The notes under the pieces were generated by a model. The model was not told the DNA's origin. It did no database searches and saw only the letters and a program-made list of their open reading frames with translations. A stretch of 64,000 nt of DNA from Schleiferiaceae bacterium (GTDB taxonomy: Bacteria; Bacteroidota; Bacteroidia; Flavobacteriales; Schleiferiaceae), in contig JAURGG010000002.1 of NCBI GenBank assembly GCA_030833905.1, forward strand, positions 1 through 64,000. Direction: 5' to 3'. Below, one piece after another: positions 45,008 through 52,903 of the stretch. The translations under genes were made by a program, and so were the position numbers. Every line of letters begins with the position of its first letter. The first letter of the stretch is position 1.

Positions 45008-47184
45008 TTTGAGTGCGGAACCACGAATCGGGCCGCAACTTCTCTGGCACGCACGGCACATTCAGGGGTCCAGTGTTCTTCTTGGGCCTTGCGAATGAGT
45101 GCATAGGCCTCAGGCCACGTCGTATACGTCTGCACGCGACCTTCTAAGCCAAGTCCCTCAACCGCTTTGACGTGGGCTACAATATGGCGTCCCTGAAGCA
45201 ATGCTTGGATGAGTTTGAACTTGATTCCGAGGCTGTGCTCTGCATGCACCACGACAACTTGTGCATCCGCGTACAGTTGGTCGAGTTCAGTGTCTGTAGG
45301 GCGATCTATGTAGTGCGGCGTACCAGAAGGCGCATTGTGCCCCGCAAAGCACAGTGGAGCAATGGGGGGATTTGCAGCGAGCAAGCCCTTGATCGCCGCG
45401 GCATTCTCTTCGACGCTAAACTTACCTACCGCCAGTACCAGCGGCGTTGAAGCGGCGTCAACAGGCACCGACTGCGTAAAGGGGTGGTGTGGCGGAACCC
45501 AAACGGCCGACGAACGTGGGCTAAGGGCATTCCACGCGTCGGCGTCCAGCGGAGTAATCGCTGAAACCGGACCCGACCACGCTGCCGCCACATGCCGTTC
45601 CCAAAGGCGAAGGGCCCAGGTCTCGGCTACATAGTACCCCTTTTTAAGTCCGGATGCTTGATGTGCCAGACTGGCATAGTAGGCGGATTCGGGGTTGTGA
45701 AGCCGCAAGGTTCCGTCGGTCGAAAGCCCGCTGCAGTGAAGGCCGTGGTAGGTGACGGTTCCGCGCTGGATAGCGGCCTGGTGGCGCGCGATTCGGGTTT
45801 GACGGCTCTGCACGATCCATGGCCGTAGGCTGCGCGGGAACCGGGTACGTTGCAGGACGTTGGTGTGAACTTCGGCGAAGGGCGCATCGGATCCTAAGGC
45901 ATAGCGGGTAAAGGCGTGAACGACCACCTGTTGGCCCGTGGACGCTACAGCGCGAACGTGACCCAGAACCTCAAGGGTACCGCCGTAGCGGGGCGGCTCG
46001 AGGCGGTCCATGCTCCAAATGTGGTGCGTGGCGCGGCCCTCAAGTCGGTCGATCAGGCGGTGCCAAACTTGGCCTTCGTGGCCCCAGTGGTAGTGGTGGG
46101 CGGCCTGGCGGGCAGCTCGGGTTGCGGCGGCATAAGCAGTGGGCTGCATGAGCGCGCGGGCGGCATTTGAGATTGCGGCGGGGCTGAGCTGGTCGAGCAC
46201 GATTCCGGCACCGGAATCGCGCACCACTCGGGCTACTTCGATGAGGTCGCTTGCGACGACGGGGATTCCAGCCTGTAAGTAGTCAAAGAGCTTGTTGGGC
46301 AAGCTCCATCGGTAGTTCTGCGACTTGGGCTTGTCGAGGCTGAATCCAAGGTCGGCTGCTTGGGTGTAGCGCTGAAGTTGTTCACGCGGAACCCGGCCGA
46401 CAAAGTGCACATTGGACCATCCTTGGGCCGCAGCATGCTGCTGAAGTTGGGGAATGGCGTCGCCGCTACCGACCACCAAAAGTTCCACTTCGGGGCACTG
46501 GGCCGCAGCCTCCACGAGTTCCTCTGCACCGCGGTCGACATTGATTCCGGCACCTTGAAGGATCCAAATTGTTTGATCAAGGGGGAGTCCAAGGGATTCG
46601 CGCATCGCGCGCTTGTGCTCCTCGGCATCAGGCCGTTCTCCGTCAGTACCCCATGGCAGATCCGCGGCGAGGGGAACATTTCGGACGACGTCCCAGGTTC
46701 CGCCGTATTCACGAGCGTACTGGTCGGCAATGCTTTGGTTAACAGTGACCCGAAAATCAGTGCGCGGAATTCCGTAGCGTTCCACCAGACGCCACAGGCA
46801 CTGCACAATGGGGCGTGCCTCGAGTTCAGGGGCACCCAAAAAGTACTCGTGGCTGTCGTAGACAAGGGGCTTGGCGCGACGCATGGCCCACAAGGCATTG
46901 GGCGCCAAGGTATCAAGGTCGTTGGCAAGGTAGACGTCGGGCTGAAGTCGTTTTAGGGCGAACCACAGTCGGACCTGAAATTCCACGTAGAACAGAGGGC
47001 CTCGGTTCACGCGGCAGCTCATACGATGGGTTTCGTAGGAACGATCCAAAGGTGCTGGATTGGGGTAGGTTCGGCCCACCAGGACCACTCGGTATCCGCG
47101 CTCGGCCCAAAGCGTCGCCGTGCGGTGCACGCGCTGGTCGCTGTGCAGGTCGTTGATGACGCTCAGTACTACAGTTGGGCCCAT
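45004..47184 (-). CDS. Fused double glycosyltransferase
   Basis: The 726-residue protein appears to be two GT-B type glycosyltransferases joined. Domain 1 (about 1-385) has LSVINDLHSDQRVHRTATLW, YLANDLDTLAPNALWAM, DSHEYFLGAPE and the GT4-like donor region LQAGIPVVASDLIEVARVV. Domain 2 (about 390-726) begins HIWSMDRLEPPRYGGTLEVL and ends with LVLAVGKFSVEENAAAIKGL and a degenerate LIQALLQGRHIVAHVKAV. In related genomes I know these as separate neighbouring proteins. It probably builds a surface polysaccharide, with the acceptor unknown. There is no stop or frameshift at the junction. Confidence 0.8.
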   Translation of the reverse strand: MGPTVVLSVINDLHSDQRVHRTATLWAERGYRVVLVGRTYPNPAPLDRSYETHRMSCRVNRGPLFYVEFQVRLWFALKRLQPDVYLANDLDTLAPNALWAMRRAKPLVYDSHEYFLGAPELEARPIVQCLWRLVERYGIPRTDFRVTVNQSIADQYAREYGGTWDVVRNVPLAADLPWGTDGERPDAEEHKRAMRESLGLPLDQTIWILQGAGINVDRGAEELVEAAAQCPEVELLVVGSGDAIPQLQQHAAAQGWSNVHFVGRVPREQLQRYTQAADLGFSLDKPKSQNYRWSLPNKLFDYLQAGIPVVASDLIEVARVVRDSGAGIVLDQLSPAAISNAARALMQPTAYAAATRAARQAAHHYHWGHEGQVWHRLIDRLEGRATHHIWSMDRLEPPRYGGTLEVLGHVRAVASTGQQVVVHAFTRYALGSDAPFAEVHTNVLQRTRFPRSLRPWIVQSRQTRIARHQAAIQRGTVTYHGLHCSGLSTDGTLRLHNPESAYYASLAHQASGLKKGYYVAETWALRLWERHVAAAWSGPVSAITPLDADAWNALSPRSSAVWVPPHHPFTQSVPVDAASTPLVLAVGKFSVEENAAAIKGLLAANPPIAPLCFAGHNAPSGTPHYIDRPTDTELDQLYADAQVVVVHAEHSLGIKFKLIQALLQGRHIVAHVKAVEGLGLEGRVQTYTTWPEAYALIRKAQEEHWTPECAVRAREVAARFVVPHSN

Positions 47185-47188
47185 GAAG

Positions 47189-47196
47189 CGAAGGTA
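47189..47196 (-). promoter_or_regulatory. -7 element of the fused glycosyltransferase
   Basis: TACCTTCG on the minus strand is close to TAnnTTTG and ends 4 bases before the ATG at 47184. It faces away from the queA promoter. Confidence 0.45.
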
Positions 47197-47215
47197 GCGC
47201 AGGCATCTTTTGAAC

Positions 47216-47223
47216 GAACTTTG
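47216..47223 (+). promoter_or_regulatory. -7 element of queA
   Basis: GAACTTTG (TTTG part perfect) ends 5 bases before the queA ATG at 47229. It is 19 bases from the divergent box at 47189-47196. Confidence 0.45.
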
Positions 47224-47228
47224 CGGCT

Positions 47229-48617
47229 ATGACGACGGATCCACGCCACATTCGCATCACTGACTACGACTACCCCCTACCCGACCACCGCATCGCTCAA
47301 GAGCCCTGCAGCCCGCGGGATGCCGCAAAACTGCTGGTGTGGGACCGCGGAACGCTTCGCGACCTTGGGGTTCGCGATGCCCCGGATGTGGTCGCCAACT
47401 GGGGTCCCTATCGATTGGTGGTCAACGAAGCTCGGGTGGTTCCGGCGCGGATTTTTATTCCGCGACCCAGCGGAGAAGGACACTTCGAGCTCTTTTACCT
47501 CGACGCCGAGGGCCTCTCGGTCGAGCAGGCCATGGCCGAAACTTCTACGCTTCAGGCATGGTGCAAAGTCCGCCCCAGCAAAAAGTGGAAGGATGGAGTG
47601 ATGCTCGTGCACGAATGCGGGCTGACAGCGTCGCGACTGGCCCAGCGGGACGGTGAGTCCTTGGTTGAGTTCCGGTGGTCGTCGGGGCAGACTTGGGCTC
47701 AAATCTTGGGTGACGTGGGCCGAATACCCCTGCCACCCTACATGCACCGCGCCGATACTGAAGCCGACCGCGACCGCTACCAGTCCGTATTTGCACGCCA
47801 CGAAGGTTCGGTCGCAGCACCCACAGCAAGCCTGCACTGGACGCCAGAACTCATGGACCGCTGGCGCGAGGTATGTACCAATACCCAAGCGGTCACGCTG
47901 CACGTTGGAGCAGGCACCTTTCAGCCCGTCAGCGCCGACGCGGTAGGCGACCACCACATGCACGCCGAAGAGGTCGTGGTGGGACGCGCGGTCATTGAAT
48001 CTTTGGCCGACGGCCTCGCCGTGCTCGCCATGGGCACCACGGCCGCCCGCACCCTCGAGTCGCTCTACTGGTGGGCCCTCGACTGGCAGCGCAGCGGAAC
48101 CATGCCTACCTACGTGGACCAGTGGGCTCCCTACGCGGGGCTTCTGGCTCACGGTTTCTCGGCGCAAGGCGCGGAGCTGCCGGCTCACGGTTTCTCGCCG
48201 CAAGGCGCGGAGCTGCCGGCTCACGGTTTCTCGGCGCAAGGCGCGGAGCTGCCGGCTCACGGTTTCTCGGCGCAAGGCGCGGAGCTGCCGGTTTCTGGTT
48301 CGACGCCGCAGGGCCAGGCGGCTGCGGGGAGCGATTCACTGGATCCCGAAGTGTGCGCCTTGTTTGCGTGGGCCGCGCAGGAGATGGTAAAGCGAGGGCA
48401 AGACGTCGTTTCATTTCGGACGGCATTGATTATTGCTCCCGGCTATTCGTACAAAGTGGTTAAGGCGTTGATCACGAATTTTCACCAGCCCCAATCCACC
48501 CTTTTGCTGCTGATTGCCGCAGGCCTCGGAACCGAGTGGCGCGCGATCTACGAGCACGCGCTGGCGAACGACTACCGTTTTTTGAGCTACGGCGACGCGA
48601 ATCTTTACCGGTTCTAA
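47229..48617 (+). CDS. queA: S-adenosylmethionine:tRNA ribosyltransferase-isomerase with repeat insert
   Basis: The 462-residue enzyme makes epoxyqueuosine in tRNA from preQ1. Motifs include ITDYDYPLPDHRIAQEPCSP at the N-terminus, TLHVGAGTFQPVSAD, MHAEEVVV and, near the C-terminus, SFRTALIIAPGYSYKVVKAL with ITNFHQPQSTLLLLIAAGLG. It is over 100 residues longer than the E. coli enzyme. Part of that is a Bacteroidota-type insertion, here filled with four 12-residue repeats (AHGFSAQGAELP, residues 307-354) plus a degenerate fifth. The core before and after looks intact. Confidence 0.92.
   Translation: MTTDPRHIRITDYDYPLPDHRIAQEPCSPRDAAKLLVWDRGTLRDLGVRDAPDVVANWGPYRLVVNEARVVPARIFIPRPSGEGHFELFYLDAEGLSVEQAMAETSTLQAWCKVRPSKKWKDGVMLVHECGLTASRLAQRDGESLVEFRWSSGQTWAQILGDVGRIPLPPYMHRADTEADRDRYQSVFARHEGSVAAPTASLHWTPELMDRWREVCTNTQAVTLHVGAGTFQPVSADAVGDHHMHAEEVVVGRAVIESLADGLAVLAMGTTAARTLESLYWWALDWQRSGTMPTYVDQWAPYAGLLAHGFSAQGAELPAHGFSPQGAELPAHGFSAQGAELPAHGFSAQGAELPVSGSTPQGQAAAGSDSLDPEVCALFAWAAQEMVKRGQDVVSFRTALIIAPGYSYKVVKALITNFHQPQSTLLLLIAAGLGTEWRAIYEHALANDYRFLSYGDANLYRF
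48147..48326 (+). repeat. 36-bp tandem repeat inside queA
   Basis: Four adjacent 36-base copies at 48147, 48183, 48219 and 48255 encode AHGFSAQGAELP. Copies 1, 3 and 4 are identical, and copy 2 has one change (CCG for GCG, giving SPQ). A diverged fifth unit follows to about 48326 (VSGSTPQGQAA). The unit keeps the frame. Confidence 0.95.
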
Positions 48618-48652
48618 ACGTCTGCCCCGACTAAGGGTTGCAGCTTGCGGTC

Positions 48653-49699
48653 ATGAATCGCATGCTGGTTTGGTTGCTTTTGGGGAGCGGAATTTGGTGC
48701 GCCGACGGTCGGCTTGAGGCAAGTCATGGACCAAGGTGTGCCATTGCCTCCGGTTTTGATGGGTCTCACGGACTCCGTTGGATTGAGCAAAATACCGCTG
48801 CGAGTGACGGTATCCCGGCATTCCAAATCGAGGCCAGCCCATCAGACGGGTCAAGCACGTCAGATTCGTTGCTTTTTGTGTGGTGGAACCTTCAAAATTT
48901 GTTTGACACGGTGGCGAATTCAGGTCCAAGGGATCGGGATTTTTTGCCCGACGGGCCGTACAAGTGGGATTCGAAGCGGTACTTCACGAAGCTGTACGCG
49001 GTGGGCCGCGGCCTTGCCGCGGCCGGGGGCGGCCGCATCCCCGACGCGATCGGCGTGTGCGAGGTGGAGAACGCCGATGTACTCGACGACCTTGAGCGGA
49101 GGTGGCCGCCCTCATGGCGCCTGTGGCGCCTGCACCGCGACAGCCCTGACGGACGCGGAATCGACGTCGCCGTCTGGTACAACCCCGAGCGCCTGCGCGT
49201 GGACAGCGTCGCATGGATCCACCCGGGGCAAGACTATCCCACCCGCGAAGCCCTCTGGGTCCGCTGGAAACTCCCCGACGGAACACTACTCACTTGGCTC
49301 TGGCTCCACCTACCCTCGCAGCGTGCTCCCTCACCCAATGCGCGAACGTCTGCCTTATCTGCCGTCCTAAAACAGATCTCCGGACCCTTGGACGGCCTAA
49401 CTGGCGACCTCAATGAAGGATTAGATGGACCATTGGCCGAATGGCTCCGCACGAAGAAATTTCGCCCGCACTACCCCACCAATCTACCTGGTAGTTATGC
49501 GTACCGCGGTCGCCTCGAAGCCCTTGATGGAGTATGGACTCACACCGCAAGTCGTTGGACTTCAGACACTCGATCAGTTCCCTACGGGCTAAAGCACAAT
49601 AAAACCGGCTACCAAATCCGAGGAAGCTTTGAAGGCCTCAGATACCGCGGTGGCGCATCGGACCACCTTCCGCTTCGACTAACGATTGTTCGCAACTAA
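48653..49699 (+). CDS. Exported endonuclease/exonuclease/phosphatase family protein
   Basis: The 348-residue protein starts MNRMLVWLLLGSGIWCADG (signal peptide). It has the DNase I-like fold motifs FVWWNLQNLFDT (metal-site Asn), CEVEN (Glu), LTGDLNEGLDG (Asp, Asn) and SDHLPL (Asp-His). It could cleave nucleic acids or phosphodiesters outside the cell or in the periplasm. The TTG at 48638 would add five residues before the signal peptide, so the ATG is preferred. Residues 25-70 are not conserved. It follows queA by 35 bases. Confidence 0.85.
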   Translation: MNRMLVWLLLGSGIWCADGRLEASHGPRCAIASGFDGSHGLRWIEQNTAASDGIPAFQIEASPSDGSSTSDSLLFVWWNLQNLFDTVANSGPRDRDFLPDGPYKWDSKRYFTKLYAVGRGLAAAGGGRIPDAIGVCEVENADVLDDLERRWPPSWRLWRLHRDSPDGRGIDVAVWYNPERLRVDSVAWIHPGQDYPTREALWVRWKLPDGTLLTWLWLHLPSQRAPSPNARTSALSAVLKQISGPLDGLTGDLNEGLDGPLAEWLRTKKFRPHYPTNLPGSYAYRGRLEALDGVWTHTASRWTSDTRSVPYGLKHNKTGYQIRGSFEGLRYRGGASDHLPLRLTIVRN

Positions 49700-49715
49700 A
49701 AAGCACGTATTTTAG
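49686..49715 (+). promoter_or_regulatory. Promoter of the Omp28-like gene
   Basis: A -33 TTG (49686-49688), 19 bases, then TATTTTAG (49708-49715). The -33 lies inside the last codons of the previous gene. The ATG is 30 bases downstream. Confidence 0.6.
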
Positions 49716-49745
49716 CGCAACGATGGGATTAACCCCAAGTCATTT

Positions 49746-50714
49746 ATGAAACAACTCGCCTACCTCAGTCTCGCTGCAGTCGCCTTGGCCTCGTGCCGCA
49801 AGCCTGAACCCGAACCCATTCCCGAGGTCTACATCACGGATTCACTTACGGTAAATCCTGAGCAAAAAGTTCTTGTGATTGAAACCACCGGAACATGGTG
49901 CCAGTACTGCCCAAATGGTGCTGAGCTCATGCTCATGGCCCACAATATGTTCTATGATTCTGTCGCAGGAGAGTCAATGATCATTCCGTTTGCATCGCAC
50001 ACCGGCGACCTTTTTGAGACCAGTGTTCAGACCGGCCTCAATACCGCCTTTCCGACCACGGGTGTCCCTAACTTCTACGTTCAAAATTCTGATGCTGGCC
50101 AAGACATCCTTGGCCCCATCGCCGGAGCTCTTTTGAACGAGCCTAAAGTCGGCGTAACTCATGCATGGCAGTACAACGCAAGCGGCGACACCATCTACGT
50201 CTACCCAAAGGTTCAATTCTTTCAAAACGCCAAGGATGCGAAGTACTATGTTCAGTCGTACTTGATGGTCACGAACATTGACGCCAAAGAGTACAATGCT
50301 GCCGGAACACCTGTAAATCTGAACCAAGTCTCTTCAGTACCCATCGTCACGACGGGATCTGGAAACACCCCCACCCGTTGGACTTCGCAAGTCGATCCAC
50401 TTTCAGGTAAAGTAGGTGATGACATCTACCAGCACGACCACGTACCAATGGTAGCTGGTTTGACACAGAACCCATACGGAGTGGAGCTCGACAGCATCAA
50501 CCCACTGGGTGATGACTTCTTTGAAGGCGACATCTTCGGTTCAAAGTACACCCCGATTGTGATTAAAATCCCAGTACAGGGCAACGTTCAAATGCAGGTC
50601 GTCAAAGGTTTGATGCCCAATGTGAAAATAGAAATCGCCACCCTTCTTTGGGAGCCCCGCACCGACGGTGAGCTTGGTGTACTCTTCACCAACGGATTCA
50701 TCGACAAGAAGTAA
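49746..50714 (+). CDS. Omp28-related thioredoxin-fold lipoprotein
   Basis: The 322-residue product has a lipoprotein signal peptide with the lipobox LASC (Cys17). A thioredoxin-like domain follows with TTGTWCQYCPNGAELMLM (Cys52, Cys55). A beta-rich C-terminal half (about 150-322) follows, as in the Omp28/Omp28-related family of Porphyromonas and its relatives. It is likely anchored in the outer membrane. Redox activity is plausible from the CxxC pair but not proved. It is transcribed from its own promoter and ends at a terminator. Confidence 0.85.
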   Translation: MKQLAYLSLAAVALASCRKPEPEPIPEVYITDSLTVNPEQKVLVIETTGTWCQYCPNGAELMLMAHNMFYDSVAGESMIIPFASHTGDLFETSVQTGLNTAFPTTGVPNFYVQNSDAGQDILGPIAGALLNEPKVGVTHAWQYNASGDTIYVYPKVQFFQNAKDAKYYVQSYLMVTNIDAKEYNAAGTPVNLNQVSSVPIVTTGSGNTPTRWTSQVDPLSGKVGDDIYQHDHVPMVAGLTQNPYGVELDSINPLGDDFFEGDIFGSKYTPIVIKIPVQGNVQMQVVKGLMPNVKIEIATLLWEPRTDGELGVLFTNGFIDKK

Positions 50715-50734
50715 TTCACGTCCACTGACATTGA

Positions 50735-50759
50735 AGCCGGCCCTGTGCCGGCTTTTTTT
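50735..50759 (+). terminator. Terminator of the Omp28-like gene
   Basis: A 7-bp stem (AGCCGGC / GCCGGCT) with a 5-base loop is followed by TTTTTTT. It begins 20 bases after the stop. Confidence 0.9.
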
Positions 50760-51181
50760 GTGGGGTCAATGTTCACCTGATTGTCGTTTTTGATTGAACT
50801 CCCAATGGCGAACGCGTCGTGCATGGACGCACACAACGGGGAATTCCATACGTCTGCAGCATCAGTACAAAAAGTAAAATCCGGTTATACCCGTACAGCA
50901 CAAGTGAGGCATTGCCCTTCGCGCCTGCGGCGCTAGGGCTGTTTCGCGGCCGACCGCCTGCAGCGCTCGAGCTAAGACGCTATGTGCATTGAGCACTTCA
51001 CACACTTCGGTGCCAAACTACTTCAAGGCTTCACGCCTTGGCGCTCACGCCAGGGCGCTATTCACGTTCAGCGCCGCTGCGCGGCAACAAGAAACGAGTA
51101 GCAAGAAACAGAATTAAGCTTAGCAATGGCCAACAAGCTAACCTCGCCAACCTTGCCAAATGGCCAACCTTGCCAAACCGG
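50760..51181. repeat. Repeat- and hairpin-rich intergenic region
   Basis: I see no gene here. From 50877 to 50893 it has AAATCCGGTTATACCCG, identical to 1093-1109. From about 50900 to 51085 it has a chain of short hairpins, including AAGGC/GCCTT (51025-51039), TGGCG/CGCCA (51039-51052) and GCCGC/GCGGC (51073-51085). From 51086 to 51180 it has copies of the CTTGCCAACCTTGC-type repeat found at 2421-2466. Part of it may act as the yidC 3' end. Confidence 0.6.
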
Positions 51182-52903
51182 CTATTTACTGCGGCGCGCG
51201 CGGCGGTTGCCCGCCTCCTTGTTGGCTTCGAGCATGTCGTTCATCTTCTTGGCGAAGCGCGACTGGGATCCGCCCTTGGCCTTCGTTTCGTCGATCTTGG
51301 CGCGAATGGACTTCTCGTCGATGACAAACTCCTTAATGATCCACTGCTGGCCAAAAGTCAGGACGTTCGAGATGAAGTAGTAGTAAGACAGACCAGATGA
51401 GTAGTTGTTGAACCACACGAGCAGCATGAAGGGCATGAGGTACTGAATGATCATCATCTGCTGCTGCATCATACTGTTGCCAGAGGTGGGCGTCATTGAG
51501 TTGTTGAACTTGGTGTACAAGAACGTAGAAATGGCCATCAGCAGTGTGAACAGCGACACGTGGGCTCCATAGAAGGGAATTTCAAACGGAAGACTCAGGA
51601 TGCTGTCGTAGCTCGACAGGTCGTCGGCCCACAAGAAGGCCTGCTGGCGAAGTTCAATCGATACAGGGAAGAAGCGGAACATCGCAATCAGGATAGGCAG
51701 CGACAAGAGCTGGGGAATGCATCCACCGAGTGGGTTGACGCCGGCCTTCTGGTAGAGCGCCATGGTCTCCTGCTGCTTTTTGGCGGGGTCGGCATCTTTG
51801 AACTTCTCGTTGAGCTCGTCCATCTCGGGCTTGAGCACGCGCATCTTGGCCATGCTCTTGTAGCTCGTGAAGGTGAGCGGAGAAAGCACGAGTTTGATGA
51901 GGGCCGCCATCAGCAAGATGATCAAACCGTAGTTAAGGCCGTATCCGTCCAAGAAATTGAACAGTGGTGAAACCACGTACTTGCCGATCCATCCGAAGAT
52001 GCCCCATCCGAATGGAATAACTTGGTCGAAATTCTGGTCAAATGCCTTTAGAATTGCATATTGATTCGGGCCGTGGTACCAGATGCCCTGAGCTGAAACA
52101 ACGCCGTTTTCGCTCGCAAAAGTGAGCTTGGACTCGTAGTTCAGGGTGTGCGCCGTGTCAGACGCGACGCGAATTTGCATGTCAGCTTTTTGGATGCCCT
52201 GGTCGGCTTGAAGAATACTGCTGAAGTACTGCTGCTTGTGCGCAACCCACCCGAGGTTCTCTGCACTCTCGTCGTCGTCGCGGCCGTCACTCATACTGCT
52301 GCGGTCCTCGTCAGCGTTGCTGTAGTAGTACGTGCTCGAGTTGGTAGTCTCGTTGGTTTTGCTCTTTTCGTGGCGGATTCCCTGCTGCTTCCAGGTCAGC
52401 GTGAGGTCTGTAGCGCTTGGGGTTTGAAGCGCCCAGCGGAGGCCGTAGCCCTCGGCCGGGAGTTCATAGGTCCATGTGGTGCCTTGGTCGCTTGTCAACT
52501 GGAGCTTTGAGCCGTTCTGGCTCGCAATCATAGCATCATTGGTAGGTCCTTCAAGAACTTGGTTGCCATCTATGACGCGTAGCGGTTTGCCTTGCCAGTC
52601 AAGGTATTCCTTGAGCTCGGCGTACTTGATTTGGCCTCCTCGGTTGCTGATTACGTAGCGGACTTGGGCATTTTCAAGAGTGAATTCTTGCTCTGGACCA
52701 TAGGTGTCGCCGGCGGCGGCAGTGGAATCGACCACGGCAACTTCTGGTTGCGAGGCTGTCGAGGTAGAAGTAACTTCTTCGGTAGCCACGGGCTTTTCGG
52801 CGGGGTCCATGGTGCTGGCCCAGTACGAGGTTCCGAGTAAAATAGCCCCAATGAGGCCAAAACCGATCAGCTGGTTGCGATCCAAAAACGGACGTTGTTC
52901 CAT
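51182..52903 (-). CDS. yidC: Membrane protein insertase YidC
   Basis: The 573-residue insertase has an N-terminal membrane helix (LIGFGLIGAILLGTSYWAST), a large periplasmic beta domain to about 330, then the conserved membrane core. The core includes LGPLTFTSYKSMAKMRVLKP-like positioning (here LSPLTFTSYKSMAKMRVLKP) and QLLSLPILIAMFRFFPVSIE. It has a basic C-terminal tail (GNRRARRSK). It inserts and folds inner-membrane proteins alone or with SecYEG. It starts 3 bases after pyrG on the same strand, so they share a transcript. Confidence 0.96.
   Translation of the reverse strand: MEQRPFLDRNQLIGFGLIGAILLGTSYWASTMDPAEKPVATEEVTSTSTASQPEVAVVDSTAAAGDTYGPEQEFTLENAQVRYVISNRGGQIKYAELKEYLDWQGKPLRVIDGNQVLEGPTNDAMIASQNGSKLQLTSDQGTTWTYELPAEGYGLRWALQTPSATDLTLTWKQQGIRHEKSKTNETTNSSTYYYSNADEDRSSMSDGRDDDESAENLGWVAHKQQYFSSILQADQGIQKADMQIRVASDTAHTLNYESKLTFASENGVVSAQGIWYHGPNQYAILKAFDQNFDQVIPFGWGIFGWIGKYVVSPLFNFLDGYGLNYGLIILLMAALIKLVLSPLTFTSYKSMAKMRVLKPEMDELNEKFKDADPAKKQQETMALYQKAGVNPLGGCIPQLLSLPILIAMFRFFPVSIELRQQAFLWADDLSSYDSILSLPFEIPFYGAHVSLFTLLMAISTFLYTKFNNSMTPTSGNSMMQQQMMIIQYLMPFMLLVWFNNYSSGLSYYYFISNVLTFGQQWIIKEFVIDEKSIRAKIDETKAKGGSQSRFAKKMNDMLEANKEAGNRRARRSK

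Follow-up and report, generated by a model that had tools for sequence, protein, structure and literature searches.

A putative QueA-like enzyme encoded in a Schleiferiaceae genome carries an in-frame tandem array of 36-bp units (Table 1), which probably represents a permissive, disordered linker that grew recently, through slippage or unequal recombination, and is largely neutral. The array lies within a stretch of 64 kb (in the following referred to as the window), and its setting was compared among congeneric genomes and among more distant orthologues of the gene.

Results

Structure of the array

Tandem Repeats Finder recovers the array at 48134-48291 (period 36, 4.4 copies, 95% match, score 288); one other array, a small one with a score of 57, is present in the window. 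Self-identity at an offset of 36 amounts to 0.98 over 100 bp; among 300 codon-shuffled versions of the gene, the highest value was 0.48. The units are arranged head to tail, are near-identical and have a length divisible by three, and the 462 codons of the open reading frame contain no internal stop, as is characteristic of an in-frame minisatellite. The in-frame 36-bp repeat reported in the first-pass annotation is thus confirmed, and a unit-by-unit comparison bears out its count of four near-identical units, three of them identical, together with a decayed fifth. This fifth unit departs from the other four at 15-16 of its 36 bases, and its terminal part is similar to the last unit in the congeners G019 and G001.

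No further copies of the unit were found in the 1.64-Mb genome (searched over 24 bases with as many as 3 mismatches), and an Rfam search of positions 46000-51500 for structured RNA gave no match. Hairpin formation by the DNA was considered as a driver of the expansion and rejected, since the array folds no better than shuffled sequences (z = 0.81). A long open reading frame on the minus strand overlaps the array and is taken as a shadow of the plus-strand gene.

Table 1. Coordinates of the gene, its variable linker and the repeat units in the window.
Feature	Position	Strand	Description	Basis
ORF, QueA-family paralogue (long Bacteroidia type)	47229-48617	+	462 aa	PF02547
Variable linker	48135-48341	+	residues 303-371	alignments; AlphaFold2 pLDDT <50 at 310-365
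36-bp unit 1	48147-48182	+	AHGFSAQGAELP	Tandem Repeats Finder, unit comparison
36-bp unit 2	48183-48218	+	single change at 48198 (G to C, Ala to Pro)	
36-bp unit 3	48219-48254	+	identical to unit 1	
36-bp unit 4	48255-48290	+	identical to unit 1	
Decayed unit 5	48291-48326	+	VSGSTPQGQAAA	

A second, long QueA-family gene

The window protein belongs to the superfamily PF02547 (282.6 bits, E = 5e-84, against a Pfam gathering score of 25) and narrowly misses both NCBIfam equivalog cut-offs for QueA (NF001140, 302.3 versus 324; TIGR00113, 261.4 versus 267.45). The array is not the reason for these low scores, because an orthologue with a single unit likewise remains below the cut-offs (304.0 and 262.2, respectively). 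The canonical QueA of the same genome, a protein of 351 aa encoded on contig C138 (32794-33849), clears both (419.5 and 363.3), and some of the long paralogues from Bacteroidales do so as well. The gene had been identified as queA; with the canonical gene located elsewhere, that name has to be withdrawn in favour of a second, longer QueA-family paralogue.

This long paralogue is widespread in Bacteroidia, and within the order its orthologues were seen solely in the window's own family (f1). Canonical QueA is also present in all ten tested Bacteroidia genomes that possess the long gene. FastTree places the long proteins apart from the canonical QueA of Flavobacteriales, with the exception of one divergent long protein (L066), whose placement hinges on the midpoint root. 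Within the collection of papers searched, none dealt with a QueA paralogue in Bacteroidetes.

Canonical QueA (tRNA preQ1(34) S-adenosylmethionine ribosyltransferase-isomerase) shares Pfam family and fold with the long paralogue, in which most of its motifs are kept (PPY, QS/TVFA..EGSVAAPTA, HVGAGTF, GTT..RTLES, TNFH, YRFLSYGDA). The long protein is nevertheless distinct, with an extra helical hairpin that bears the linker, and the two coexist in one genome. Queuosine synthesis is plausible in this organism, since a tRNA-guanine transglycosylase is encoded in its genome (C117); the window protein itself is regarded here as a putative QueA-like enzyme.

Linker and predicted structure

The linker is situated between a helix ending in DQWAPY and a helix starting with DPEVC. 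It comprises 69 aa in the window protein versus 16-20 aa in one-unit congeners, so that the extra length amounts to about 49-53 residues, which falls within the 48-60 residues estimated earlier. An AlphaFold2 model of the window protein, built with 32 sequences, has a mean pLDDT of 82.6, with values above 90 across most of the core and residues 310-365 as the sole segment below 50. For the one-unit orthologue the mean pLDDT is 88.6, a segment below 50 is absent, and the order of helices and strands is identical to that of the core of the window protein. The four best fold matches of the predicted structure in Foldseek are QueA chains in the PDB (probability 1.00), and the QueA structures 1yy3, 1vky and 1wdi are among the closest folds.

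The first-pass annotation had expected an exposed, disordered loop flanked by conserved motifs and had proposed structure modelling to locate it. The low-confidence segment inside a confidently predicted QueA core supports this expectation, and in the model the loop joins two helices of that core. Low pLDDT is consistent with disorder and no proof of it, and we regard the linker as presumably disordered. As the one-unit orthologue has the same predicted core, the array appears to lengthen the loop and to leave the predicted core undisturbed. The further suggestion that the repeat may tune the enzyme found no evidence in this comparison.

Variation among congeners and age of the expansion

Across six congeneric species, each represented by one genome, the number of 12-aa units at the site varies from one to five: five in the window, three in G019 (SELLVDGSLPQG, AELTVSGSSGQG, AELLVSGSSARG), three in G001 (SELLIDGSTPQG, VELLVAGSSAQA, AELAVNGSSEQG), about two in G017, and one each in G020 and G002. 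In G005 and G007 the linker is unrelated, and in more distant congeners it is shorter. A variable copy number, which the first-pass annotation had expected among strains, is borne out among species. For the core of the protein, comparisons with G020, G001, G017, G002, G005 and G007 yield dN/dS ratios of 0.07-0.12 at dS values of 0.8-1.5, and on these sequence comparisons the core is under purifying selection. The comparison with G019 gives a dS of 0.55 and an inflated dN, the record having a run of Ns followed by a frame change.

The units of the window are 0-3% diverged, as opposed to a dS of at least 0.5 to the nearest congener, which supports the earlier claim of a recent expansion. Given that units 2-4 differ by no more than one base in 36, the near-identical units are judged to be younger, by origin or by homogenisation, than the divergence from any of the congeners sampled.

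A dispersed heptamer and its traces in the linker

Tandem heptamers of the form CTGGYTN occur in intergenic regions of the same genome. Genome-wide, 30 matches to the pattern CTGGYTNCTGGYTNCT were counted, compared with 0 for the reversed control. Eleven of 16 heptamer regions inspected are intergenic and five lie inside predicted genes, i.e. the repeat is dispersed and mostly intergenic; within the genus the pattern is present in nine of 22 genomes. In G001, G002, G017 and G020 the linker of the QueA paralogue itself matches CTGGYTNCTGGYTNCT and contains at least two perfect tandem heptamers, and these four perfect matches may go back to one event by descent. The window's linker lacks two perfect tandem heptamers, its best match being CCGGTTTCTGGTTC at the start of unit 5, and its array is consequently classed only as possibly descended from the heptamer repeat.

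Linkers were scored with a two-heptamer matrix trained on intergenic copies and compared with 400 sampled coding windows, in a post hoc test (the link was noticed after the linkers had been viewed) with non-independent orthologues and a coding background of about 178 kb. Scores as high as that of the linker were reached by none of these 400 in G020, G017 and G002, by one in G001, by four in G019 and by five for the window; in a larger sample, 1.4% of equal-length coding windows reach the score of the window's linker. The linkers of most other congeners have ordinary heptamer scores, with a weaker exception in G021 on the opposite strand, and strong matches are confined to genomes that harbour the heptamer elsewhere. 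The linker thus seems to bear traces of (CTGGYTN)n, a dispersed heptamer specific to this clade, with a weak match in the window itself.

Sampled genome sequence contains no general excess of 7-bp tandem doublets (199 versus 218 simulated), and the most frequent ones belong to the CT[AG]GTTN family, the same as the heptamer. Doublets of 9 bp are about threefold above simulation, and a second intergenic repeat family, with a unit of 9 bases (GCCAACCTC/T), is found at L120 473-526 and at about 51100-51184 of the window. Between two convergent genes (L195, 973-1007), two heptamer doublets are perfectly inverted with respect to each other (AACCAGAAACCAGAAACTGGTTTCTGGTT) and could form a terminator-like hairpin.

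The heptamer also occurs in the linkers of other genes. Of the five genic regions, one lies in the E2 subunit between the lipoyl and E3-binding domains, and another in an ABC transporter, in the linker that connects its membrane domain to the ATPase. The latter linker is variable in length, with three QQPAASN units in G017, similar units in G020 and shorter or plain linkers elsewhere. In-frame tracts were noted at L194 925-961, L198 954-969 and L208 1020-1205; the genes are that of the E2 acyltransferase just mentioned, one for an Fe-S protein and one for a DUF349 protein. The ABC transporter locus of the window's genome (L202; contig C116, about 72.4-73.5 kb) is located just outside the window, and its frame shifts at the heptamer tract, leaving an open frame of 367-389 codons with the ATPase in another frame. 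The congeners have a single frame of about 600 codons, and the frame change may be an assembly error, decay or a phase-variation-like switch.

Other repeats in the same linker of Prevotellaceae

Orthologues from Prevotellaceae carry four TTCACTC heptamers (L051, L103) or CTCCCTTTAAGGGAGGG-type palindromes (CTCCC..GGGAG; L060-L062) in the corresponding linker. Both repeats are dispersed in these genomes, with 5 to 59 matches of the heptamer and 4 to 57 of the palindrome in four genomes each, and none in the controls. As these unrelated dispersed repeats show, in-frame insertion into the linker is tolerated in separate lineages. In-frame fragments of intergenic dispersed repeats were found in the Prevotellaceae and related orthologues L060, L053, L058, L061, L062, L071 and L103, and in L060 (3001-4389) they occupy three separate loops of one protein.

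Discussion

We interpret the array as a minisatellite that lies in frame within a permissive and intrinsically disordered linker between two helices of the conserved QueA-like core. The four units of the window were duplicated (or homogenised) recently, because they are far more alike than the divergence between species would allow if they were old. Duplication would have proceeded by replication slippage or by unequal recombination between units, the frame would have been kept because only multiples of three survive in the gene, and the effect on catalysis would be little or none; the expanded linker is probably harmless padding.

A selected array, in which the enzyme is tuned, or a partner bound, through the length of the linker or its repeated AHGFSAQGAELP peptide, would agree with the fact that all changes are in frame and that the gene is intact in every readable congener. 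We nevertheless consider this improbable, as close relatives have linkers of 16 to 69 aa or unrelated ones alongside a strongly conserved core, free drift is seen among the units of G019 and G001, unit 2 has acquired a proline, and the array leaves the predicted core unchanged; selection on linker length is possible, though unsupported. Slightly more improbable still is an assembly artefact, by which the true number of units would differ from the assembled one. With its 193 contigs the genome has draft status, and tandem repeats are often misjudged in short-read assemblies (PMC6868369). The array is, however, anchored by unique positions at 48145, 48198 and 48292, and its unanchored identical stretch extends over at most about 94 bp, which a read of 100-150 bp should be able to cross; collapse or inflation by short reads is thus possible and not likely. 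Moreover, independent assemblies of congeners have one to three diverged units at the same site, which an artefact of a single assembly cannot explain. One unit more or fewer than assembled is possible, and a true genome with a single unit is very unlikely.

As to the origin of the 36-bp unit in the minisatellite, we lean slightly towards a scenario in which in-frame (CTGGYTN)n provided the seed of the ancestral linker in this clade and the unit then grew from a stretch with about two heptamers. This would have to accommodate that 36 is not a multiple of 7 and that no repeat clearly accounts for the G+C-rich half of the unit. The competing view, to which we grant a considerable though lesser chance, is that the unit is unrelated to the heptamer and resulted from the duplication of an ordinary linker encoding LVAGFS-like residues. 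It would fit the unit length and the resemblance to the heptamer, which is weak in the window and strong in four congeners that possibly share it by descent, and it is at odds with the limitation of strong matches to genomes with the heptamer elsewhere and with the occurrence of the same repeat in linkers of other genes. In a wider reading, which we find nearly as credible as not, clade-specific dispersed heptamers would repeatedly land in frame in linkers between helices or domains of conserved enzymes, namely the QueA paralogue, an ABC transporter and E2. There they would expand by slippage and supply disordered protein sequence on a continuing basis, and Flavobacteriales and Prevotellaceae would have made independent use of the linker of the QueA paralogue as a shared landing site.

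Intragenic repeats are known from several systems. Amino-acid tandem repeats in Borgs create disordered protein regions (PMC9879509), and small variable segments occur in frame within genes of bacterial genomes (PMC2884548). The array resembles both in its unit divisible by three, its near-identical units of recent formation, its predicted disorder and a length that varies between relatives; it differs in residing in a cytoplasmic enzyme of the RNA-modification type instead of a surface protein, and in that congeners of the window's chromosome have older, diverged units at the site. TAACTGA heptamer repeats have been described from Beggiatoaceae, Cyanobacteria and some Bacteroidetes (PMC4679880). 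Like them, the heptamer reported here is a seven-base direct repeat that is mostly intergenic, with a minority read through in open reading frames outside conserved domains. By contrast, it has a different sequence (CTGGYTN), belongs to another clade and lies in internal linkers of conserved enzymes, and its trace in the window is degenerate within a tandem unit of 36 bp. PARCELs, coding palindromic repeats that encode a 25-residue amphipathic domain (PMC2996958), are similar in that repeat DNA spread through a genome is translated as protein, whereas the linker of the window is predicted to be disordered, is Gly/Ala/Ser-rich and is devoid of a dyad-driven DNA structure (fold z-score 0.81).

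Taken alone, the array of the window is an ordinary in-frame minisatellite of a kind already known. With regard to the gene, the name is corrected: Bacteroidia have a canonical QueA and a second, long QueA-family gene of putative function. The value of the locus lies in the comparative set, with one to five units in six congeners around a core under purifying selection and with unrelated dispersed repeats in the same linker of distant orthologues. This set makes the question of how non-coding repeats become protein linkers directly testable by comparison.
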